DNA from: Lentimicrobiaceae bacterium
Lineage (GTDB): Bacteria; Bacteroidota; Bacteroidia; Bacteroidales; F082
DNA: 58,198 nt
Assembly: GCA_015061295.1 (NCBI GenBank)
Contig: SUWU01000013.1
Coordinates: forward strand, 1 to 58,198
Direction of reading: 5' to 3'
How positions within the stretch are numbered: the first letter of the stretch is position 1; each line of letters begins with the position of its first letter. Under the pieces are notes generated by a model, which was not told the DNA's origin, did not search any database, and saw nothing but the letters and a program-made list of their open reading frames with translations. The translations under genes were made by a program, and so were the position numbers. Below, one piece after another: positions 1,812-32,374 of this stretch.

Positions 1812-2576
1812 TCATTTCAAAAACTCCCTCATCCTCTCTTGGGCGTCGTCGCTCATTCGTTCCTGCGCTATCAGCTGCGCCGTCATATCAAAGACGCTAC
1901 TATATGGATTGCTTATCCCTCCTACGTTTCTGATGAGATGCTTGCAGTCTCTGATGGCATCGGGCGAGGCTTTCAAGAGATCGTCGATATAAGCATCTAA
2001 TTTCTTATTGATTTCGTCGATGTCGCCAACGAAATTAACGAGCTTATAATCTCTTGCTTCTTGTGCCGTGAACTTTCTTCCCGAGAGCATGAGGTCACGC
2101 GCCGGCGCCTCTCCACATCGTGCCATGACGAAAGGCGATATCGTCGCTGGCGTCAGTCCCAACTTCACCTCACTAAAGGCGAAGACGGTATCTTTCTCCG
2201 CAAGGACGATGTCGGAAGCCGCCGTGATGCCGTTACCGCCTCCTATCACCGCGCCATGGACGAGAGTGATGACTGGCTTGTTACAGAAATATATCTTCTG
2301 GAATAACTTAGATAATCTTTTGGCGTCTTCTAAATTTTGGTTGTAGCCGAAAGACGCTATGTCTTTCATATAGTTGATGTCAGCTCCTGCACAGAACGAC
2401 TTGCCATTGCCGCATATCTCTATCACCCTGATGTCGTCGCGAGCATCTAACCAATCGACGGCTTCTGTGAGTTCTTTTATCATGAGGGCGTTCATCGCGT
2501 TACGAACCTCTGGACGGTTCAAGGCGATACGTGCCACGTTCTTCTCTATCCCTATTTGTAATGTCGTGAAATCCAT
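1812..2576 (-). CDS. Enoyl-CoA hydratase, probable methylglutaconyl-CoA hydratase
   Basis: A crotonase-superfamily protein of 254 residues. The oxyanion-hole segment is CGNGKSFCAGADINYMKDI, and a second motif GAVIGGGNGITAASDIVLAEK is followed by FAFSEVKLGLTPATISPFV, a stretch typical of the leucine-pathway hydratases. The crotonase fold binds acyl-CoA and hydrates the double bond. It starts 9 bases after the stop of the carboxylase beta subunit, so the two are almost surely co-transcribed, and the pair matches consecutive steps of leucine breakdown (methylcrotonyl-CoA to methylglutaconyl-CoA to HMG-CoA). A generic enoyl-CoA hydratase remains possible. Confidence 0.82.
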   Translation of the reverse strand: MDFTTLQIGIEKNVARIALNRPEVRNAMNALMIKELTEAVDWLDARDDIRVIEICGNGKSFCAGADINYMKDIASFGYNQNLEDAKRLSKLFQKIYFCNKPVITLVHGAVIGGGNGITAASDIVLAEKDTVFAFSEVKLGLTPATISPFVMARCGEAPARDLMLSGRKFTAQEARDYKLVNFVGDIDEINKKLDAYIDDLLKASPDAIRDCKHLIRNVGGISNPYSSVFDMTAQLIAQERMSDDAQERMREFLK

Positions 2577-2585
2577 CTTTTTAAA

Positions 2586-4193
2586 TTACATTCTAAACAC
2601 TCCGAACTGTAATGGAGGGAACGGCTGGTTCAACGAGGCTGCTATTCCCATCGCCAATATCTTACGAGTATCGACAGGGTCGATGATGCCATCGTCCCAG
2701 AGGCGTGCGGTGCTGTAAAAGGCCGAGCCTTCGTAGTCGTACTTAGCTAAAATATCTGTCCTTATCTTATTCAGTTCTTCCTTTGAAATCTCCAAGCCTC
2801 TGCTCTTATATTGTTCTTCTTTCACTGTAGTGAGAACACTTGCGGCCTGCTCTCCTCCCATGACAGAAATCTTGGCGTTAGGCCACATGAACAACAATCT
2901 CGGACTATAGGCGCGTCCTGCCATGCCGTAGTTGCCAGCTCCGAAAGAGCCGCCGAAGATGACGGTGAACTTAGGCACGTTGGCGTTGCTGACAGCATGA
3001 ACCATCTTAGCTCCGTCTTTGGCGATACCGCCACATTCATATTGTTTTCCTACCATGAAACCTGTGACATTCTGCAAGAAGACAAGCGGTATGTTACGCT
3101 GACAACACAGCTCTATGAAATGCGTCGCCTTCAGTGCCGACTCGGAGAACAGCACTCCGTAGTTTGCTATGATACCTACTGGAAATCCCATGATATGGGC
3201 GAATCCGCATACTATCGTCGTGGCATAACGAGCCTTGAACTCTTGGAAGCGGCTGCCATCGACGAGACGCGCTATCACCTCTCTCGGATCGACGAGTTGT
3301 CGTAGATCGACGGGTGCGATGCCATATAAATCTTCTGGGTCATACAAAGGCGCTTCTATAGGAAGCAGGTCTAACTTCTGTTTCTCTCTCTTCTCTAAAG
3401 TCTTGAAGATGTTACGACATATCTGCATGGCGTGACTGTCGTTCTCCGCGAGATGGTCGGCAACACCCGACACCGAGGTGTGCATGTCAGCGCCGCCGAG
3501 TTCTTCGGCAGTGACTATCTCCCCGGTAGCGGCTTTCACCAAAGGAGGTCCTGCGAGATATATCGTCCCTTGATTTCTAACGATGATAGTCTCGTCGCTC
3601 ATGGCAGGCACGTAAGCTCCGCCTGCTGTACACATTCCCATCACTATGGCGATTTGCGGTATTCCCATCGCCGACATACGAGCTTGGTTATAGAAGAAAC
3701 GACCGAAGTGATCTCTGTCGGGGAACACCGTGTCTTGTTCTGGCAAGAAGGCTCCGCCACTATCGACCATATAGACGCACGGCAACTTATTCTCCATTGC
3801 GATCTCCTGCGCACGAAGATGTTTCTTCACCGTATATTGCATATAAGTACCGCCTTTTACAGTAGCGTCGTTGGCGACTATCATAGCCTCACGACCTTGT
3901 ATTATTCCTATTCCTGTGACGATACCAGCTGAAGGGAAGTCGTTGTTATAAGTATCATAAGCTGCCATAGGCGACAGCTCCAAAAAAGGAGTGTTTTTAT
4001 CGATAAGCTGATCGATGCGTTCGCGAGCAAGTAACTTATGACGTTTCTTATGCTTCTCGATAGCTACAGCGCCACCGCCTTGCATACTCATCGCCATGCC
4101 TTCACGATAACGAGCCATCAAATCCATATAGGCTTTCTTATTATCTTGAAACTCCTTGCTATTGGGATTTATCTGTGACTTTAGTATTTGCAA
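2586..4193 (-). CDS. mccB: Methylcrotonyl-CoA carboxylase carboxyltransferase (beta) subunit
   Basis: A 535-residue carboxyltransferase of the usual length for methylcrotonyl-CoA carboxylase beta. Recognisable segments are [65 protein letters not shown] with [17 protein letters not shown], and near the C-terminus [19 protein letters not shown]. It moves carboxyl from biotin to the acyl-CoA. The biotin-carboxylase/biotin-carrier subunit is not adjacent or anywhere in the window. Propionyl-CoA or geranyl-CoA carboxylase beta subunits are relatives, but the motif set and the neighbouring hydratase favour methylcrotonyl-CoA. Confidence 0.88.
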
Positions 4194-22546: not shown

Positions 22547-23437
22547 TTAAGAATTATCTTTTTTAATGTCGTTACCAGAGAATCTTTTCACAACATCTTT
22601 AGCGTAAGTCTTTGACACCGGAATAGGATCGATACCAGGAAAGTCGAAATCAATATAGAAGCCATCGCTCTCATGACGAAGTATCTTTATCTTCAGAGTA
22701 TTCACAATATAAGTTCTATGGCATCGCATCAGAGGAGTATTAGAAAAATTATCTTGTATAGTCTGAATCTTACATCTGATCATATAACGATTAAGCATTC
22801 CGTTCTTATTATAGTTGACCACAGTATAGTTGTCTTCGGCTTTGATATAATACAGATTATCAAGTTTTATCGACAGTTTCAGAACGCCTTTATTATCAGC
22901 GATATTAATAATATCTACATTTTGTGGTATTGCTTCACCATCTGTAGCTATGTTATTAGTATCGGTAATCATCAAGGTATTATACATATCTTTTATTATC
23001 AGCCATAATGTCGATACAAGATATGGTATTCCTAAAGCCAACAATGTTATAAGGATACTCTTCGTAACTATATGTGTCATAGAGTAGTTAGGTATGTTGA
23101 CATATACCACAGATAATATTGCATAGAATACACCTATTAATATTATCTCTCCGAACAGCCAGAGAGAATATTTTGTATATGTCATTTTCATCTCTCGTTT
23201 ACTAAAGAAATACATCAAAGTACGACTTATTATTAAGAGCAAAGCAGATCCTATAACAAATATAGCAGTAAGTAGATATTTCTCCGATTTTGCCATACCG
23301 AACCACGCAGTGTCGGAATAGGGAGAATAAATCACGAGAAACACCAATGCGTATAGTATGGAGAAAACGAGAGACAAGGTGATATTAGCGGGTTCCAATA
23401 TTGAGTTGAGGAAGTTATTTTTTCTATTCTTTTTCAT
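22547..23437 (-). CDS. Membrane-bound LytTR-type transcriptional regulator
   Basis: A 296-residue protein. Residues about 15-150 contain four hydrophobic segments (ITLSLVFSILYALVFLVIY, YLLTAIFVIGSALLLI, FGEIILIGVFYAILSVVYV, SILITLLALGIPYLVSTLW). The C-terminal 105 residues are a LytTR DNA-binding domain: LYYIKAEDNYTVVNYNKNG, LMRCHRTYIVNTLKI and PVSKTYAKDVV. No kinase or receiver domain is present, so it probably senses something in the membrane directly. It is divergent from the fab/etf operon with 179 bases between, and is the natural candidate to control it; that link is inference. Confidence 0.85.
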   Translation of the reverse strand: MKKNRKNNFLNSILEPANITLSLVFSILYALVFLVIYSPYSDTAWFGMAKSEKYLLTAIFVIGSALLLIISRTLMYFFSKREMKMTYTKYSLWLFGEIILIGVFYAILSVVYVNIPNYSMTHIVTKSILITLLALGIPYLVSTLWLIIKDMYNTLMITDTNNIATDGEAIPQNVDIINIADNKGVLKLSIKLDNLYYIKAEDNYTVVNYNKNGMLNRYMIRCKIQTIQDNFSNTPLMRCHRTYIVNTLKIKILRHESDGFYIDFDFPGIDPIPVSKTYAKDVVKRFSGNDIKKDNS

Positions 23438-23475: not shown

Positions 23476-23504
23476 CAATTTTTTCACCCCATATTAGATA
23501 TTTT

Positions 23505-23616: not shown

Positions 23617-24564
23617 ATGAAAATTATAGGTACCGGACGTTCTCATCCGTCATTAGTAGTAACAAATGAGATGCTCTCGCAGTTTCTCGACACGAGCGAT
23701 GAATGGATCACATCGAGAACAGGAATTAAAGAAAGACGTATTATATCTTCTGAGAATTTAGAAGATTTGGCGATTGATGCAGCCAAGAAAGCCTTGGCAG
23801 ATGCTAATATGGATGCTAAAGATTTGGATTATATCATATGCACCAATGTCGTCAATGAGTTTGTCTCTCCTGCCATGAGTTGTCTCATACAAGGAGCTAT
23901 CGGAGCCAACTGTCCATGTTTCGACCTCAACGGAGCTTGCGTAGGTTTCATCTACGCCTTAGAGATAGCAGAAGCGTTTTACAAAAGCGGTAAATATAAG
24001 AACATATTAGTAGTCTGTGCTGAAGAGCCATCTCGCATGGTAAATTGGCACGACCGCACTGCCAGTGTACTCTTCGGTGACGGAGCCGCTGCTGCTGTGC
24101 TAACAGAGGGCGACAATATCAAGGCTACTAAAATGTCGGCATCTTGCAGTTGGGACAGACTATATCAAAAACATGAGCTTCAATATTCTCCATATAACAC
24201 AAAACCTAACAGCAATCTTCCTTTGGTGATGCACGGACAAGATGTCTTCATGTTCGCCACACGTGCATGTATAAGAGATATCAGTGCCGTATTAAATCAA
24301 TCGGGATATACTCCAGATCAAGTTGATCATTATCTCATACATCAAGCTAATCTGAGAATCATCAACAACATCAAACAGTATGTAAAACAGCCAGATGAAA
24401 AATTCCCTCTAAACATAGAGAGATATGGTAACACCTCATCGGCGAGTGTTCCTATCCTTCTTGATGAAGTCAACAAAGAAGGTAGATTGAAGAAAGGCGA
24501 TATAATAGTAATGAGTGCTTTTGGAGCTGGTTTTGTCTCTGGAGCTTGTATTTTAGAATGGTAA
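23617..24564 (+). CDS. fabH: 3-oxoacyl-ACP synthase III (KAS III, FabH-type)
   Basis: A 315-residue initiating condensing enzyme of normal FabH length. The catalytic triad is visible: Cys108 in DLNGACVGF, His242 in LIHQANLRI and Asn272 in RYGNTSSASVP. Also present are DEWITSRTGIKERR and the glycine-rich GAFGAGFVSG end. FabH joins an acyl-CoA primer to malonyl-ACP. Here it opens an eight-gene operon. It is probably an additional, specialised copy, since in this phylum the housekeeping fabH commonly lies near plsX; this cannot be checked from the window. Primer specificity is unknown. Confidence 0.88.
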   Translation: MKIIGTGRSHPSLVVTNEMLSQFLDTSDEWITSRTGIKERRIISSENLEDLAIDAAKKALADANMDAKDLDYIICTNVVNEFVSPAMSCLIQGAIGANCPCFDLNGACVGFIYALEIAEAFYKSGKYKNILVVCAEEPSRMVNWHDRTASVLFGDGAAAAVLTEGDNIKATKMSASCSWDRLYQKHELQYSPYNTKPNSNLPLVMHGQDVFMFATRACIRDISAVLNQSGYTPDQVDHYLIHQANLRIINNIKQYVKQPDEKFPLNIERYGNTSSASVPILLDEVNKEGRLKKGDIIVMSAFGAGFVSGACILEW

Positions 24565-24569
24565 CAATT

Positions 24570-25805
24570 ATGGAAAGAAGAGTAGTTATAACAGGAATGG
24601 GTGCCATCACCCCTCTCGGCAACAATGTCGAGACCCTATGGAACAATTTGGTTAACGGAGTCTGCGGTATCGATTACATAACAAGAATCGACACAGAAGA
24701 TCTCCCTGTCAAGATCGCTGCTGAAGTCAAAAATTTCAACCCTGTTGATTACGGTGTTGATCCTGCTTTTGCACGTCGCAACGATTTATTTGCCATCTAT
24801 GCCATGGCTGCTTCGATAGAAGCTATGAAAGATAACGAAGGCTGCTTCGACCCTGAGCGTCTCGGTGTTTATGTAGGCTCAGGCGAAGGCGGTTTCGACA
24901 CCATTTTAAGAGAGATAGTAAAATGGAAAGAACAAGGAGCCAAGTGGGTCTCTCCTATGCTTATTCCGAGTATGATTTCAAATATAGCAGCTGGTAATAT
25001 TGCCATTCGTCATAACGCATGTGGCGTATGTGTGCCTATAGTGACTGCCTGTGCCACAGGAACACACTCCATAGGAGAAGCATATCGCGCCATAAAACAC
25101 GGTTATGCCGATGCCATCATCACTGGAGGCTCCGAAGCCGCAGTCAACCCTATCAGCATTGCAGGCTTTGCCAACTGTAAGGCTCTCACCCGCGCAGAAG
25201 ATCCTAAGCAAGCATCATTGCCATTCGACATACGTCGTGCTGGTTTTGTACTCGGCGAAGGCGCAGGTATAGTACTTCTCGAAGAATATGAACACGCCAA
25301 AGCACGCGGCGCTAAGATATACGCTGAAGTGTGCGGTTATGGCAACACCTGTGATGCCCATCACGTCACAGCGCCACACCCTGAAGGAAAACAAGCAGCA
25401 CGCGCCATAAAGATGGCTTTAGATGAAGCCCAATATAACGACAATGATGTGCTTCATATCAACACACATGGAACAGGAACGCCACTCAACGACAGTTCCG
25501 AGACAGCAGCTATTAAGTTGGCTATAGGCGAGGATAAAGCTCGCAAAGCATATATCAATTCTACCAAATCAATGACAGGACATTTACTCGGTGCTGCAGG
25601 AGGCGTTGAGGTGATAGCAGCAACACTCGCATTATATCACGGCATCGTCCCTCCAACAATAAACCTCAACGAGCCTGACCCTTCATGCGATTTGAATTAT
25701 ACACCTAACACAGCAGTCAAAGCTGACCTTACAATTGCCATTTCACAGTCATTAGGCTTCGGTGGACATAACTCGTGTATAGCTCTTAGAAAAATTAATA
25801 GTTGA
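24570..25805 (+). CDS. fabF: 3-oxoacyl-ACP synthase II (KAS II, FabF-type)
   Basis: A 411-residue elongating condensing enzyme when started at the ATG at 24570, where the family's MERRVVITGMGAITPLG begins. An in-frame ATG at 24558 lies inside the end of fabH and is less likely. The Cys-His-His triad is intact: Cys161 (TACATGTHS), His300 (NTHGTGTPLND) and His338 (MTGHLLGAAGG), with the PFD segment and LGFGGHNS end. It is therefore catalytically competent and not a chain-length-factor-type partner. The start is 5 bases after the fabH stop codon. Confidence 0.9.
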   Translation: MERRVVITGMGAITPLGNNVETLWNNLVNGVCGIDYITRIDTEDLPVKIAAEVKNFNPVDYGVDPAFARRNDLFAIYAMAASIEAMKDNEGCFDPERLGVYVGSGEGGFDTILREIVKWKEQGAKWVSPMLIPSMISNIAAGNIAIRHNACGVCVPIVTACATGTHSIGEAYRAIKHGYADAIITGGSEAAVNPISIAGFANCKALTRAEDPKQASLPFDIRRAGFVLGEGAGIVLLEEYEHAKARGAKIYAEVCGYGNTCDAHHVTAPHPEGKQAARAIKMALDEAQYNDNDVLHINTHGTGTPLNDSSETAAIKLAIGEDKARKAYINSTKSMTGHLLGAAGGVEVIAATLALYHGIVPPTINLNEPDPSCDLNYTPNTAVKADLTIAISQSLGFGGHNSCIALRKINS

Positions 25806-25816
25806 CTTTAATAAAT

Positions 25817-26251
25817 ATGACAAGAGAAGAATTAAAAAATTATTTACCTCATCGTGAGCCTATGTTGCTCATCGATGAGATTGACATCGATGAAAATAAG
25901 GTAGTACATGCTAAATATCATGTCACAGGAGAAGAGTTTTTCTTGAAAGGACATTTTCCTGGACAGCCTACCGTTCCTGGCGTTATCTTATGTGAGATGA
26001 TGGGACAATCATGTTCTCTTCTCATACTCGATGACTTAATCGGTAAGATAACATTATACACAGGCATCGACAACGTCCGTTTCAAGTCGCAAGTCGTTCC
26101 TGGCGATACTATAGAGATTGAATCGACATTGACATCAAAGAGAGCTAATATGTACTTCTGCGAAGCCAAAGCCTCCGTCAATGGAAAACTCTGTGCCAAA
26201 GGCAGTTTATCATTTGCACTAATTGAAGACACAAGAAAAAAAGATGAATAA
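25817..26251 (+). CDS. fabZ: 3-hydroxyacyl-ACP dehydratase (FabZ-type hotdog protein)
   Basis: A 144-residue single-hotdog dehydratase when started at the ATG at 25817; a TTG-started extension would overlap fabF and adds nothing conserved. The FabZ signature is LPHREPMLLID and GHFPGQPTVPGVILCEMMGQ, with catalytic His46 and Glu60 spaced 14 residues as in FabZ. It would dehydrate the hydroxyacyl-ACP made by FabG. The end overlaps the start of etfB by 8 bases, so translation of the lipid enzyme and the flavoprotein is probably coupled. Confidence 0.87.
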   Translation: MTREELKNYLPHREPMLLIDEIDIDENKVVHAKYHVTGEEFFLKGHFPGQPTVPGVILCEMMGQSCSLLILDDLIGKITLYTGIDNVRFKSQVVPGDTIEIESTLTSKRANMYFCEAKASVNGKLCAKGSLSFALIEDTRKKDE

Positions 26252-27071
26252 CAAAGATTTTAGAATAGTAGTGTTGGCGAAGCAAGTTCCCGACACACAT
26301 AATGTAGGCAAAGATGCCATGAAAGAAGACGGCACCATCAACCGTGCTGCTCTTCCTGCCATCTTCAACCCTGATGATTTGAAAGCATTAGAGATGGCAC
26401 TTGCATGCAAAGATGCAATATCTTGCGTCTCTACAGACGTCTCCGTGAAAGTTACCATTGTCACTATGGGACCTTCACGCGCAGCAGAGATAATACGTGA
26501 GTCGATGTTCAGAGGTGCCGACGACGGCATCGTCATCAGCGACAAACGCTTTGCTGGCTCCGACACCTTAGCCACATCATACGCTTTATCGATGGCAGTA
26601 AAAAAACTTGGAAAGATAGATCTTGTCTTTGCAGGACATCAGGCTATCGATGGCGACACTGCACAGGTAGGACCTCAGGTGGCAGAGAAGTTAGAGATGC
26701 CACAACTGACATACGCTGAGGAGCTTATCTCCCTAAACAAAGAGGAAATAGTGATAAAAAGACGTCTCGAAAGAGGTGTTGAGATAGTAAAAGCACAACT
26801 TCCTACTTTGGTGACAGTACACAGCAACGCATACGATTGCCGTCCTCGCAGAGCTGAGCGCGTCATTATGTACAAGAAAGCTCAGATAGAAGAATGGACA
26901 GCCGACGACATCAATCCAGATTTCGAGAGATTAGGAATGAACGGCTCTCCAACAAAAGTAAAATCAATAGAAAATGTTGTTCTTACAAGTAAAGAGAATA
27001 AAATCATAAACAACAACGAAAGTGAAATCAACGAGTTGATGAAAGAACTTATCACAACTCACATCATCTAA
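26244..27071 (+). CDS. etfB: Electron-transfer flavoprotein beta subunit
   Basis: A 275-residue EtfB when started at the ATG at 26244 ([18 protein letters not shown]). Segments [52 protein letters not shown] and [21 protein letters not shown] are very like the EtfB of clostridial butyryl-CoA dehydrogenase complexes as I remember them. Etf moves electrons between an acyl-CoA dehydrogenase and another carrier. The Clostridium-like pattern is compatible with electron bifurcation (NADH oxidised, ferredoxin and enoyl thioester reduced), but cofactor identity cannot be shown from sequence reading alone. Confidence 0.9.
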
Positions 27072-27100
27072 AATTTAAAACATTAAAAAAATCATTTATC

Positions 27101-27337
27101 ATGGAAACAAGAGAAAAAGTTATCGACATCATTGAAAATAAATTAGGTACAGCACGTGAAAATATCGTTGACAGCGCAAGTTTCACCAACGACCTTGGAG
27201 CTGACTCATTAGATACAGTAGAACTCATCATGGAATTTGAGAGAGAGTTCGGCATCAATATTCCTGACAATCAAGCTGAGAAAATCACTACTGTTGGTGA
27301 TGCTATCAAATTCGTTGAAGAATCTCTTAACAAATAA
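27101..27337 (+). CDS. acpP: Acyl carrier protein
   Basis: A 78-residue ACP with phosphopantetheine attachment at Ser36 in [16 protein letters not shown] and the usual acidic helices. It lies between etfB (29-base gap) and etfA (23-base gap), an unusual position that ties the carrier to the flavoprotein. It could be the dedicated carrier for the fab enzymes in this operon or the main cellular ACP. Confidence 0.94.
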
Positions 27338-27360
27338 ATTTTAACCTTAAAACTACAAGT

Positions 27361-28383
27361 ATGAACAACATATTAGTATTCTGTGAGATAACAGAAGAAC
27401 AGCAAATAGCCGAGGTGAGTTTGGAGTTATGTTCTAAAGCTCGCAAACTCGCCGACAGCTTAAGCTATCGTCTTGATGCTATCGTCATAGGAAACGATAT
27501 AAGAAATATCGAAGAACAGCTATATCCTTATGGTGTCGATTCTATCTTTTATTTGAGCGACTTCCGTTTATCATCATATCAAACCATACCCTTCTTCAGT
27601 ATTATCACAAAGCTCATCTCTGAAGAGACACCAGATATAGTATTGTTCGGAGCCACATCGGTAGGACGCGACATCGCTCCTCGCGTAGCGTCTTATCTTC
27701 GCTGTGGCTTGACAGCAGATTGTACCAACCTCGAAATTGGCAGCCATCACGACGCCAAGAATAACAAGACCTACGACAACATCCTTTATCAGATCCGTCC
27801 AGCTTTCGGAGGCAATATCATAGCAACTATCGTTTCTCCAGAGACACGTCCTCAGATGGCCACGGTACGCGAAGGCGTCATGAAAAAAGAGGTATATAAC
27901 AACAATCATAAAGGTAATATCATCACTCTCGACGCAGAAAAATATCTTAACGACAACGACTTCTGCATCGAGATATTAGAACGTCATATCGAAGCTCAGA
28001 AAATTAATATTAAAGGTGCTCCAATCATCGTGGCAGGAGGTTATGGCATAGGTTCTAAAGAGAACTTCGCTCTTCTCCACGAACTCGCTGAAGTCATCGG
28101 CGGTGAAGTAGGCGCTACACGTGCCGCCGTCGATGCTGGCTTCACCGAGAATGAAAGACAAATCGGACAGACCGGTATCACAGTGAGACCTAAACTCTAT
28201 ATAGCCTGCGGTATATCTGGCGCAGTACAACATCGCGCTGGCATGGATCAATCGGCTAAGATAATATCAATCAACACCGACCCTAACGCTCCTATCAACG
28301 CCATCGCCGACTATACCATCATCGGTGATGCTATGGACATCATTCCTAAAATGATTAAGAGTTATAAAGAGAATATGTTGTAA
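27361..28383 (+). CDS. etfA: Electron-transfer flavoprotein alpha subunit
   Basis: A 340-residue EtfA. The N-terminal half is the Etf alpha/beta domain (FGATSVGRDIAPRVASYLRCGLTADC, RPAFGGNIIATI). The C-terminal FAD domain is clear: VAGGYGIGSKENF, GATRAAVDAGF, QIGQTGITVRPKLYIACGISGAVQH and NTDPNAPI. It pairs with EtfB to form the heterodimer. The gene follows acpP closely and is separated from the dehydrogenase by a 68-base low-complexity gap. Confidence 0.92.
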   Translation: MNNILVFCEITEEQQIAEVSLELCSKARKLADSLSYRLDAIVIGNDIRNIEEQLYPYGVDSIFYLSDFRLSSYQTIPFFSIITKLISEETPDIVLFGATSVGRDIAPRVASYLRCGLTADCTNLEIGSHHDAKNNKTYDNILYQIRPAFGGNIIATIVSPETRPQMATVREGVMKKEVYNNNHKGNIITLDAEKYLNDNDFCIEILERHIEAQKINIKGAPIIVAGGYGIGSKENFALLHELAEVIGGEVGATRAAVDAGFTENERQIGQTGITVRPKLYIACGISGAVQHRAGMDQSAKIISINTDPNAPINAIADYTIIGDAMDIIPKMIKSYKENML

Positions 28384-28385
28384 GA

Positions 28386-28440
28386 TAATGTATAATGTAC
28401 AATGAAAATTAACATGTTGACTCGTTGACTTGTTGACTTA
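28386..28440. repeat. Low-complexity tract between etfA and the acyl-CoA dehydrogenase gene
   Basis: Words ATAATGTATAATGTACAATG and GTTGACTCGTTGACTTGTTGACTT occupy the operon's internal gap. Confidence 0.75.
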
Positions 28441-28451
28441 AAAAAAAGACT

Positions 28452-30185
28452 ATGAATTTCTATAATGATAATAAAAGTTTAAAGTTTTATCTGTCGCATC
28501 CTGTGATGGATAAGATTATCAAGTTGAAAGAACGCGATTTCGTGGATAGCGACAACGATATGTTAGCTCCTTCAGACGTAAATGATGCCATAGACAACTA
28601 CGACAGAGTACTTGAAATAGTAGGCGATTTGGCTGCTAATGTGTTAGAAGCTAACGCTGAAGACGTGGATCACGAAGGCCCACAAATCGTTAACAACGAA
28701 ATCATTTATGCCAAGGGAACTAAGAAAAACCACGAGATCTTACGTGATGCTGGTCTCTACGGAATGTCGTTACCTCGTAAATACAAAGGTTTAAATTTCC
28801 CTTATGTACCTTACGTCATGGCTGCTGAAATAGTGTCGCGCGCCGACGCTGGCTTCGCTAATATATGGGGACTTCAAGACTGCGCTGAGACCATCTACGA
28901 GTTTGCTTCAGAAGAGATAAAAGACAAATATCTTCCTCTCATCAATGAAGGCTTCACTTGTTCTATGGCTCTCACCGAGCCAGATGCTGGCTCCGACCTT
29001 CAGTCGGTACGTCTCAAAGCTACCTTCGATGAAGAGAACAACTGCTGGAGACTCAATGGAGTGAAACGCTTCATCACCAACGGCGACGCTGATATTCAAC
29101 TCGTCCTTGCTCGTTCTGAAGAAGGGACAACAGACGGTCGCGGCTTATCATATTTCCTTTACGACAGAAGAGATAACGCTGTCACCGTAAGACGCATCGA
29201 GAACAAACTCGGTATCAAAGGCTCCCCTACCGCAGAACTCGTCTTCAACAACGCCCCTGCCCTACTCATCGGCGAACGACGCATGGGTCTCATCAAATAC
29301 GTGATGTCGCTGATGAATGGCGCTCGTCTCGGAGTCGGAGCTCAATCTGTGGGTCTCGCTGAAGCCGCTTATCACGAAGCATTAAACTACGCTCAACAAC
29401 GTGAACAATTCGGCAAAGCCATCATAAAATTCCCTCAAGTGTATGAAATGCTCAGCAATATGAGAGCTAAGATTGACGCAACAAGAACTCTGTTATATGA
29501 GACATCACGTTTCGTCGATTTATATAAAACATACGACTCGATAAGCAAAGAGAGAGCCCTCACAGCAGAAGAACGTCAAGATATGAAATACTCGCAACGC
29601 TGCGCTGATATGATGACTCCTATGCTTAAACTCTTCGCCAGCGAATACGCCAACCAAATCGCTTACGACTGTATCCAAGTTCATGGCGGCTCTGGCTTCA
29701 TGAAAGAATATAAGTGCGAACGTCTCTACAGAGATGCAAGAATATTAAGCATCTACGAAGGAACATCACAACTACAAGTGGTAGCAGCAATACGCTTTAT
29801 CGGAAACGGCGCATATCTCAAACGCATCGAAGAGTATGAGGCAATGCCTGTATGTGAAGAATTAATGCCATTGCGCCAACGCATCGATAAAATGAAAGAG
29901 AATTATCTCAGGGTTGTCGAATTAGCCGACAAATTCGGCACGTCATCAGAAGTATATGACTTCATGGCACGCCGCATGGTAGAAGCTATGGGATACCTCA
30001 TCATGTGTCATCTCCTCCTGCAAGATAGTAATAGAGTCATAGAGGCAACAGATCAACAAGACAACGAGTTGAAACGACTTTATAACTCTTGTAAAATAAT
30101 GGTCGCCTTAGGTGAAGCTGAAATTACAAAAATTCTTACCTTTGTGGAAAATTTCAAAGAAGAAGATTTGTCGATGTACAATTAA
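28452..30185 (+). CDS. Acyl-CoA dehydrogenase family flavoprotein
   Basis: A 577-residue acyl-CoA dehydrogenase, longer than the usual 380-400 because of N- and C-terminal extensions (residues 1-60 and about 460-577, both helical in appearance). Core signatures are SMALTEPDAGSDL, WRLNGVKRFITNGD, NKLGIKGSPTAELVF, QQREQFGKAI and the C-terminal IQVHGGSGFMKEY. The catalytic Glu is Glu436 in SIYEGTSQLQ. It would oxidise an acyl thioester or, driven by Etf, reduce an enoyl thioester. Its place in a fab operon lacking FabI/FabK/FabL suggests it may serve as the enoyl-ACP or enoyl-CoA reductase. Ordinary beta-oxidation is the alternative. Confidence 0.9.
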   Translation: MNFYNDNKSLKFYLSHPVMDKIIKLKERDFVDSDNDMLAPSDVNDAIDNYDRVLEIVGDLAANVLEANAEDVDHEGPQIVNNEIIYAKGTKKNHEILRDAGLYGMSLPRKYKGLNFPYVPYVMAAEIVSRADAGFANIWGLQDCAETIYEFASEEIKDKYLPLINEGFTCSMALTEPDAGSDLQSVRLKATFDEENNCWRLNGVKRFITNGDADIQLVLARSEEGTTDGRGLSYFLYDRRDNAVTVRRIENKLGIKGSPTAELVFNNAPALLIGERRMGLIKYVMSLMNGARLGVGAQSVGLAEAAYHEALNYAQQREQFGKAIIKFPQVYEMLSNMRAKIDATRTLLYETSRFVDLYKTYDSISKERALTAEERQDMKYSQRCADMMTPMLKLFASEYANQIAYDCIQVHGGSGFMKEYKCERLYRDARILSIYEGTSQLQVVAAIRFIGNGAYLKRIEEYEAMPVCEELMPLRQRIDKMKENYLRVVELADKFGTSSEVYDFMARRMVEAMGYLIMCHLLLQDSNRVIEATDQQDNELKRLYNSCKIMVALGEAEITKILTFVENFKEEDLSMYN

Positions 30186-30222
30186 CTTGGGGACTCATTG
30201 ACTTGAGGACTCAATGACTTAA
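30186..30222. repeat. GGACTCATTGACTTGA tract before fabG
   Basis: Two to three copies of a GACTCA(A/T)TGACTT-type word between the acyl-CoA dehydrogenase and fabG. Confidence 0.7.
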
Positions 30223-30233
30223 AAAATAAAGAC

Positions 30234-30980
30234 ATGAGATTATTATTAGAAAATAAGACCGCTGTCATCACAGGAGCTGCAAGAGGCATCGGTAAGGCTA
30301 TCGCAAAACGTTTTGCAGAAGAAGGTTGTAATATCGCTTTCACCGACTTAAACGAAGAAAGCATCAAAGCTACCGAGGCTGAGCTTCAAGTTCTTGGTGT
30401 TAAAGTCAAAGGCTATATCTCTAACGCAGCCGACTTTAATGATGTTGAAAATACAGTAAAACAGATCCACCAGGATTTTGGAAGTATCGAAGTATTGGTC
30501 AACAACGCTGGTATCACACGCGACACCTTGATGATGCGCATGACCGAGAAACAATGGGACGATGTTATCACCGTTAACTTAAAATCTGCTTTCAACTTCA
30601 TACACGCCGTCGTTCCTATCATGGCACGTCAACGTAACGGAAGTATCATCAACATGGCATCTGTAGTAGGCGTATCAGGTAACGCAGGACAAGCCAACTA
30701 CTCAGCATCTAAAGCTGGCATGATAGGTTTGGCAAAGTCTATAGCTAAGGAGATGGGCTCACGTAACATCAGAGCCAATAGTATAGCTCCTGGATTTATC
30801 ATCACAGAGATGACAAATCAACTTCCTGAAGAAGCTAAGAATGAATGGTTAAAGATGATACCTCTTAAGAGAGGTGGCACTCCAGAAGACGTAGCAGACA
30901 CTGCATTATTCCTTGCAAGCGATTTGTCGAGATACGTCACTGGTCAGACAATACACTGCTGCGGCGGAATGAATTGCTGA
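30234..30980 (+). CDS. fabG: 3-oxoacyl-ACP reductase (FabG-type SDR)
   Basis: A 248-residue classical short-chain dehydrogenase. The cofactor motif TGAARGIGKAI, NNAG at 90-93, Asn115, Ser143 and the YSASK pair (Tyr156, Lys160) are all present, with PGFIITEM typical of FabG. The reductase step would supply hydroxyacyl-ACP to FabZ. It is the last gene of the operon, followed by a strong terminator. A CoA-specific acetoacetyl-CoA reductase is a possible alternative, but ACP context favours FabG. Confidence 0.9.
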   Translation: MRLLLENKTAVITGAARGIGKAIAKRFAEEGCNIAFTDLNEESIKATEAELQVLGVKVKGYISNAADFNDVENTVKQIHQDFGSIEVLVNNAGITRDTLMMRMTEKQWDDVITVNLKSAFNFIHAVVPIMARQRNGSIINMASVVGVSGNAGQANYSASKAGMIGLAKSIAKEMGSRNIRANSIAPGFIITEMTNQLPEEAKNEWLKMIPLKRGGTPEDVADTALFLASDLSRYVTGQTIHCCGGMNC

Positions 30981-31009
30981 CACAGAACTCTGAACGCAGA
31001 ATTCAATAT

Positions 31010-31045
31010 AAAAGGCTAAAGCGGAAATTTCCACTTTAGCCTTTT
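31010..31045 (+). terminator. Terminator of the fab/etf operon
   Basis: AAAAGGCTAAAG (31010-31021) pairs with CTTTAGCCTTTT (31034-31045), and the loop itself pairs (GGAAATTTCC). The stem is symmetric and could also stop the convergent YeiH transcript. Confidence 0.85.
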
Positions 31046-31080
31046 AACTTTTGTCTTTAGACCTTAGACTTTAGCCTTTA
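31046..31080. repeat. CTTTAGAC/CTTTAGCC low-complexity tract
   Basis: Repeated words CTTTTGTCTTTAGACCTTAGACTT fill the gap between the terminator and the YeiH stop codon. Confidence 0.55.
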
Positions 31081-31081
31081 A

Positions 31082-32374
31082 TCAGTTAGCTATAAATCCG
31101 AATATCACTACTGCCACGATAAATGTGAAGATGATATTGAATGTCTGAGCTGTCAAGAAGGCCTTCAACGAGGCTCTATTCTCTTTGTTGAAAATCTCTT
31201 TGAAACGTGTCTCTAAACCGATGCAGACAAATGCTATCGAGAAGAACATTCCTTGGAAATTCTTAGCAATAGCTTTATACTTAACCATATTACCGTCTAT
31301 CTCAACGCCACCATTAAACCATAAACTAAACACAGCCGAAGCGATCACCATTCCTAAAACGAATTTAGGGAAACGATGCCATATCACCGAGCCTTTTGTC
31401 TCCATAACGCTACCTGTGTCACGTACCGACCAGAATAAAGATATTGCGAAAGCAGCTAATCCTAACAAGACATTCTGCGATGCTTTCACGATGACAGCTG
31501 TATCACCTGCCACCTCACCGAGTAAAGCTCCCGATGCAGCAACAGCTGCTGTTGTGTCGATAGTACCTCCCAACCATGCACCAGCTACCTGTTGTGCTGC
31601 AAGCTCATTGTTTGGGAAAATCATAGGAAGTATCCAGTCGCATAACAGAGGCATGATATATAACATAGGTATTGCAACGACCATCACCAATGAGATAACG
31701 TAGCTGAGTTTCTTCTGGTTGCCTCTGATTGTTCCACATGTAGCAATAGCTGCCGACACTCCACAGATACTCACCGAACTCGCTATCATCGTTGACATCT
31801 CATCATCGACTTTGAAAACCTTACGCGAAATCCAGAAAGCAAAATACCAGACACACAGAACTACCAACAAAGCCTGAGCTAAACCATAAGCTCCTGATTT
31901 TACTATCTCACCAAAGATGATAGTAGCACCGAGACAGATAATACCTATCTTAATGTAAAACTCACTTTGTATTGCAGGTTTCATCCATTCAGGAACACCA
32001 AAGACATTGCTGATAATCAAACCTAAAAGCACAGCAAACAATACCGACTCCAATCCATATTCTTTACAGAATGGAATACTTGCTAACAACTGAGCTATCA
32101 TAGTAAGAACAAATATCACTATGAAAGAAACCAAAAGACCTTTGACAGGTCTCTTCATAACGATAGTTGTGATGAGTATTATCAAGAACAAGAAAACGAA
32201 AGTATAGGCTGCATTTATCCAACCGCTCGCAGTAACTAAACTTTTAACATTTAACATCTTGATGTTGTACATAAACTCTGGGAAAATGGCAATAAATGCC
32301 AAGATGACAAATCCCAATAGTACAATGAGCCATTCCTCATTTAAAAATAATGCTTTTAATTTTCTAGTTTTCAT
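31082..32374 (-). CDS. YeiH-family putative sulfate exporter (PSE family)
   Basis: A 430-residue inner-membrane protein with about 11-12 hydrophobic segments. Family-typical stretches are FAVLLGLIISNVFGVPEW, KIGIICLGATIIFGEI, ASSVSICGVSAAIATCGTI, AWLGGTIDTTAAVAASGA and AFVCIGLETRF. YeiH/UPF0324 proteins are annotated as putative sulfate or sulfonate exporters, but the substrate is poorly established. The porin gene lies upstream in the same direction with 123 bases between; a shared transport task is possible but not shown. Confidence 0.82.
   Translation of the reverse strand: MKTRKLKALFLNEEWLIVLLGFVILAFIAIFPEFMYNIKMLNVKSLVTASGWINAAYTFVFLFLIILITTIVMKRPVKGLLVSFIVIFVLTMIAQLLASIPFCKEYGLESVLFAVLLGLIISNVFGVPEWMKPAIQSEFYIKIGIICLGATIIFGEIVKSGAYGLAQALLVVLCVWYFAFWISRKVFKVDDEMSTMIASSVSICGVSAAIATCGTIRGNQKKLSYVISLVMVVAIPMLYIMPLLCDWILPMIFPNNELAAQQVAGAWLGGTIDTTAAVAASGALLGEVAGDTAVIVKASQNVLLGLAAFAISLFWSVRDTGSVMETKGSVIWHRFPKFVLGMVIASAVFSLWFNGGVEIDGNMVKYKAIAKNFQGMFFSIAFVCIGLETRFKEIFNKENRASLKAFLTAQTFNIIFTFIVAVVIFGFIAN

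Follow-up and report, generated by a model that had tools for sequence, protein, structure and literature searches.

Which enzyme carries out enoyl reduction, the last step of fatty-acid synthesis, in a bacterium whose elongation operon holds neither FabI nor FabK? The question is raised by eight genes in a 58,198-nucleotide stretch of DNA (the window; contig SUWU01000013.1, our C33, of assembly GCA_015061295.1) from a Lentimicrobiaceae bacterium. These genes lie on the + strand at 23617-30980 in the order fabH-fabF-fabZ-etfB-acpP-etfA-acyl-coenzyme A (CoA) dehydrogenase (ACAD)-fabG. Our best-supported reading, for which we judge the chances to be somewhat better than even, is that ACAD and the electron transfer flavoprotein (ETF) formed by EtfA and EtfB (EtfAB) act as the enoyl-thioester reductase of this synthase. 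Judged from its sequence, the operon suggests an undescribed way of completing the last step. The initial annotation had offered two roles for these proteins, reduction of an enoyl-thioester or introduction of a double bond. The former is now the better supported because FabI and FabK were not found in this genome or in four same-genus genomes, because FabK is present in orthologous operons and because the same ACAD clade occurs at a second fatty-acid synthase (FAS) locus.

The type II synthase parts FabH, FabF, FabZ, FabG and acyl carrier protein (ACP) are all there with their catalytic motifs intact, in agreement with the initial annotation, which had the four enzymes keeping their catalytic residues. 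Profile scores were judged by curated NCBIfam cut-offs and Pfam domains by gathering scores; for this scoring the fabF and etfB translations were one residue short at the start. FabH (beta-ketoacyl-ACP synthase III, 315 aa, 23617..24564) has CVGF, HQAN and NTSSA motifs and 340 bits to NF006829 (cut-off 249). FabF (beta-ketoacyl-ACP synthase II, 411 aa, 24570..25805) has ACATG, HGTGT and TGHLL and 552 bits to TIGR03150 (cut-off 493.75). FabZ (3-hydroxyacyl-ACP dehydratase, 144 aa, 25817..26251), which has HREPML and GHFPG..VILCE, passes NF000582 (124.6 bits; cut-off 113), yet falls short of TIGR01750 (115.5 against 155.15). AcpP (78 aa, 27101..27337) has the GADSL motif and 102 bits to TIGR00517 (cut-off 70.45). 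FabG (3-oxoacyl-ACP reductase, 248 aa, 30234..30980), with NMASV and YSASKAG, passes TIGR01830 (333 bits; cut-off 297.75), yet not NF004197 (308 against 332). EtfB (beta subunit, 26244..27071), EtfA (alpha subunit, 340 aa, 27361..28383) and ACAD (577 aa, 28452..30185, the proposed enoyl-thioester reductase) were identified by Pfam domains above gathering scores, and none of the three reached the cut-off of an NCBIfam ETF or ACAD model. The gaps between the eight genes are -8 to 68 bases (taking fabF from the ATG at 24570 and etfB from that at 26244), which, with a hairpin at 31009-31046, bears out the earlier description of a tightly spaced unit with a strong terminator.

In the mechanism that we propose, EtfAB and ACAD would replace FabK or FabI in a type II elongation operon. 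NADH would reduce the EtfB flavin, and the EtfA flavin would hand the electrons on to the flavin adenine dinucleotide of the dehydrogenase. ACAD would then reduce the trans-2-enoyl-ACP made by FabZ to acyl-ACP, which would re-enter the cycle via FabF. Given the kinship of EtfAB, some of the electrons may reach ferredoxin by bifurcation. We infer the reductive direction, the ACP-bound substrate and NADH as the donor.

The kinship of EtfAB and ACAD is consistent with such a scheme. EtfB and EtfA are closest to CarD/CarE (CarDE), Clostridium difficile EtfAB, 7KOE, LctBC and 4KPU, all of which we take to be bifurcating or confurcating systems, with human ETF far behind (EtfB, 137-181 bits to the bifurcating type vs 61 to human ETF); the closest solved relatives are 6FAH, 5OL2, 7KOE, 7QH2 and 4KPU. 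By sequence, EtfAB falls in the NADH-linked bifurcating group. The motif DGDTAQVGP is present in 91 of 91 aligned EtfB rows (89 different sequences). ACAD has the domains of its family and the IYEGT motif with the catalytic base Glu, which is found in all 108 ACAD rows (104 different sequences). Among solved structures it matches ordinary acyl-CoA dehydrogenases best (up to 179 bits), the prolyl-ACP dehydrogenase 4IRN following further down with 115 bits. It is possible, though less likely than not, that EtfAB and ACAD form a bifurcating acyl-ACP dehydrogenase, a new class of enoyl-ACP reductase in which each elongation cycle would reduce ferredoxin and save energy.

An oxidative role was the second proposal of the initial annotation. 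ACADs are oxidative in beta-oxidation. Helicobacter pylori FabX, a flavoprotein with redox activity on fatty-acid chains bound to ACP, has been characterised as an acyl-ACP dehydrogenase in the synthesis of unsaturated fatty acids; oxidative and oxygen-linked, it has a FabK-family fold and a 4Fe-4S cluster (PMC8626469). ACAD might similarly desaturate a chain bound to ACP and lead to an unsaturated or modified lipid, but no FabI or FabK was found in these genomes to supply the saturated acyl-ACP, and the nearest relatives of EtfAB are NADH-linked ETFs, the human respiratory ETF being remote. We consider this outcome very unlikely.

The search for another enoyl reductase covered FabI and FabK in the operon, in its own genome (2.10 Mb, 93.7% complete) and in genomes of the same genus, and found neither in any of these; FabMG was not searched for. 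FabI matches split cleanly into those of at least 103 bits and those of at most 84 bits, and FabI was absent from all four same-genus genomes that are 99% complete. No FabK was found in five same-genus genomes (best E 5.8e-6; own genome 3.9e-5). PF13561 found five short-chain dehydrogenases/reductases (SDRs) in the own genome, none FabI-like: the operon FabG, a FlxB-type protein, a 261-aa SDR and two with a general SDR model as best match. Among the genomes of related loci, the FabI and FabK searches covered those of 39 of 80 loci, including all 10 with the full operon; FabI was present in 0 of these 10.

Orthologous operons point to what this gene set may be doing. In two genomes from two other families (G205, locus L196, and G106, L218), the orthologous operon is fabH-FabK-fabF-fabZ, in both with a divergent LytTR-like gene, so that FabK, likewise a flavin enzyme of enoyl-ACP reduction, stands between fabH and fabF. 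The G106 FabK stays below the TIGR03151 cut-off (432.6 against 453.1 bits), and the solved structure most similar to it is 7L00, named FabK. Two further loci (L173 and L174, in G077 and G083) have fabH-fabF-fabZ without a reductase in the operon. In a FabF tree, whose root is unreliable owing to two long aryl-polyene rows, the operon-type FabFs of these loci, that of the window included, are separate from canonical FabF (18 rows, support 98/88), and the Etf-type operons group together (support 95/90). A different arrangement, acpP-fabF-fabH-etfB-etfA-ACAD, is found at locus L016. Its FabF is of the canonical type, sharing 59% identity with the canonical copy and 49% with that of the operon, while its ACAD is sister to the 13 operon ACADs in a quick tree (support 99, by the SH-like approximate likelihood-ratio test, SH-aLRT, and 96); one ACAD clade has therefore been joined to two different FAS loci. 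FabI and FabK were not found in the L016 genome, for which completeness is not stated.

Conservation of the gene order was followed in 80 related genome loci retrieved using the operon ACAD. The full eight-gene order is present in 10 of these, at ~90% protein identity in L012-L015 and at ~65% in L034, L037, L038, L039, L042 and L043; because the order is conserved over this range of ~65-90%, chance can be ruled out as its source. The nearest loci are from Bacteroidales metagenome-assembled genomes, several of them from the ruminant hindgut (yak cecum for L012, roe deer colon for L013 and water buffalo rectum for L015). The full order also occurs in the same-genus genomes G014 and G041, G014 being the L043 genome (same coordinates) and not a separate case. 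In the remaining 69 loci, L016 set apart, ACAD is accompanied by etfA, etfB or both, or in a few stands alone, and there is no fab operon; a fabG match is present in six and a fabH match in one. Across the loci, the best aligned pieces of the etfB-etfA-ACAD trio show 42-76% identity for EtfB, 56-81% for EtfA and 60-90% for ACAD. The simplest history would be insertion into an older operon of five genes, with etfB entering ahead of acpP and etfA-ACAD behind it. One of the loci, L022, lies on a contig titled Methanobrevibacter and has a Bacteroidales-type etfB-etfA-ACAD trio nested among Bacteroidales in the ACAD tree; this label is probably a binning error.

Surveys of the family and the order set the scope of the proposal. 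The thresholds were E <=1e-60 for FabK-like proteins, E <=1e-26 for FabI and E <=1e-100 for ACAD, and what is called FabK in these surveys is in part FabK-like. In the family sample of 60 genomes, ACAD is present in 5/5 same-genus genomes and 1/55 others, and a FabK-like gene in 0/5 vs 50/55 (p 4.6e-5, not corrected for kinship), a contrast that comes from one genus and may reflect few events. Within the family, the FabK-like genes of sister genera and of G110 reach ~280-335 bits, short of the 453.1 cut-off. We keep these genes as possible reductases because the nearest solved relative of one such protein is 4IQL, the FabK of Porphyromonas gingivalis (PMC9260719). All 18 FabK-like loci viewed (L207-L217, L219 and L221-L226) have an ACAD nearby, with 26-30% identity to the operon ACAD and often with divergent EtfB/EtfA matches, and present a second case in which ACAD/ETF genes accompany a FabK-family gene. 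In the order sample of 198 genomes, FabK-like genes are present in 103, FabI in 137 and ACAD in 108. In 10 of the 81 order genomes with both fabI and ACAD, no more than 4 kb separates the two genes, which share a strand (coordinates compared by eye; nine neighbourhoods viewed); the trio is thus linked to fatty-acid genes beyond the operon as well. The order recN-like, fabI, etfB, etfA, ACAD recurs in L187, L188, L190 and L195, followed in the first three by a clpC-like gene (recN and clpC named by eye); L190 has an opposite-strand open reading frame (ORF) between fabI and etfB.

A number of observations weigh against EtfAB/ACAD being the reductase. ACADs usually act on CoA esters. Net charge was considered as a sign of ACP binding and rejected: the 13 operon ACADs carry charges of -15 to -18, more negative than the mean of -13.9 (standard deviation 3.2) for the other 95, and give no hint of an overall positive surface for ACP. 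The initial annotation would have been refuted by a gene order not conserved beyond close relatives, a check that it passes only in part: the exact order persists down to ~65% identity, but two of the five genomes called same-genus (G028 and G051) have fabH-fabF-fabZ-acpP-fabG without etf or ACAD; their trio is ~32 kb off on the same contig and belongs to a distant ACAD clade. A FabK-like gene is retained in 2 of the 10 operon genomes, G060 and G061; the FabK-like loci of operon genomes, L175 and L176, are without a neighbouring ACAD of the kind seen in the 18 loci above. No FabK match reached the curated cut-off in the family or order genomes. Across the order, ACAD occurs in 18 of 33 genomes with neither FabI nor FabK and in 90 of 165 with one or both, an odds ratio of 1.0 and hence no association. 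The trio was accordingly rejected as a general substitute for FabI/FabK, and the claim is limited to lineages with a FAS-linked trio.

These observations might be explained if the trio were an ordinary CoA-level system whose co-regulation with fatty-acid genes is incidental, either a dehydrogenase of the butyryl-CoA type and its ETF or a general ETF that serves another ACAD as well. The module singled out by the initial annotation is indeed part of a fab operon, but the trio is widespread without fab genes, as in most of the 80 loci, and ACAD, present in more than half of the order genomes, is unlinked to the absence of FabI and FabK. The own genome also has another ACAD, in a carboxylase-ptb-buk-like cluster, that would need ETF too. 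This cluster, on contig C59 (L178), contains genes for biotin carboxylase, the 380-aa ACAD and PTA_PTB and acetokinase-family proteins; the window itself has carboxyltransferase and enoyl-CoA hydratase genes at 1812-4193, and the two sets are perhaps for leucine breakdown. Against a CoA-level role, the trio is placed around acpP within the fab operon, and the second FAS locus of L016, together with the FabK that other families have in their matching operon, points to the elongation cycle. We regard a purely CoA-level role as unlikely.

It is also conceivable that some other enoyl reductase, a divergent SDR, FabV, a FabMG-like protein or another, acts here and that the trio is accessory. At the thresholds used, 15 of the 198 order genomes have none of FabI, FabK and ACAD; other reductases or missed genes must therefore exist. 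The FabV search (PF12241) gave 0/47 matches with its positive controls also silent, and FabMG, as said, lay outside the search. The 261-aa SDR of the own genome is of unassigned role, but its best 25 NCBIfam matches include no FabI or FabL model, and the 3.7 kb viewed around it are free of fab genes. This alternative seems to us improbable, to about the same degree as a CoA-level role.

If EtfAB and ACAD are the reductase, what does the operon make? It probably serves housekeeping lipid synthesis, because no other protein found in the genome is as good a candidate for a fatty-acid FabG as the one that it encodes. The specialised lipid suggested by the initial annotation has lost ground: of the five SDRs only the operon FabG looks like one of the fatty-acid type, the next being the FlxB-type SDR, which has 404.7 bits to the flexirubin FlxB model (cut-off 340), passes some FabG models too and adjoins an aromatic amino acid lyase gene. 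In G028, the operon FabG has 236 bits and the next SDR 110 bits. This argument is qualified by a second set, acpP-fabF-rnc, in the genome.

Comparison with known systems shows partial likeness only. FabK is a TIM-barrel protein with flavin mononucleotide, and NAD(P)H is its direct reductant (PMC9260719, PMC8626469). Unlike the operon system, it has no ETF and no ACAD fold; the operon ACAD has other domains, and TIGR03151 is not among its matched families. Clostridial Bcd/EtfAB, caffeyl-CoA reductase CarCDE and acryloyl-CoA reductase AcrABC likewise combine an ACAD with bifurcating-type EtfAB. These three act on CoA substrates and are not known to be encoded within a fab operon with acpP, and the window ACAD is ~200 aa longer. 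The AcrABC models all stayed below cut-off (NF042972, for the ACAD AcrC, 239.8/640; NF042970, 312.4/600; NF042971, 206.3/475 bits). RedW/PigA, a prolyl-PCP (peptidyl carrier protein) dehydrogenase, and MbtN are ACAD-fold proteins that act on carrier-protein thioesters; they are oxidative and belong to natural-product pathways, and their models gave the window ACAD 124.5, 125.1 and 29 bits, each below cut-off. The Bacteroidales etfB-etfA-ACAD trio comprises the same three genes, but stands alone in most loci, is sometimes beside fabI and is not split around acpP.

Enoyl-ACP reductases are classic targets of antibacterial agents. The sections of a 2022 review cover FabI, FabV, FabL, the metagenomic FabL2, FabI2 and FabMG, and FabK, and neither acyl-CoA dehydrogenase nor electron transfer nor ETF is matched in its main text (PMC9260719). 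In the open-licence literature (preprints outside scope), no matched title or abstract opening named an ETF/ACAD enoyl-ACP reductase. An ETF-driven class, if real, would add another solution to enoyl-ACP reduction, one that should be insensitive to FabI inhibitors; were it bifurcating, it would couple the making of lipids to energy conservation in anaerobes.

The operon is flanked by a possible regulator. A gene for a 296-aa protein with a LytTR DNA-binding domain (Pfam LytTR, 49.5 bits) lies divergent from fabH on the - strand at 22547..23437, and the protein is a candidate regulator of fatty-acid synthesis. Similar ORFs, recognised by eye, are divergent from fabH in L012, L034, L167, L172, L174 and L196 or adjoin fabG in L168 and L170, and tblastn also matched LytTR in L218; a LytTR-domain gene thus recurs beside fabH operons of several families, the FabK type included. 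Two TAnnTTTG elements, which we take to be the Bacteroidota -7 box, lie 5' of fabH at 23499 and 23581. A simple terminator scan called none at 31009-31046, where the 38-base hairpin on the + strand has -26.6 kcal/mol (z -7.2, 0/200 shuffles as good); it probably also serves the convergent gene at 31082-32374. Elsewhere, L179 and L004 (on contig C30 of the own genome) have a flexirubin- or aryl-polyene-like cluster with ketosynthases, an aromatic amino acid lyase, a FlxB-type SDR and an ACP match.

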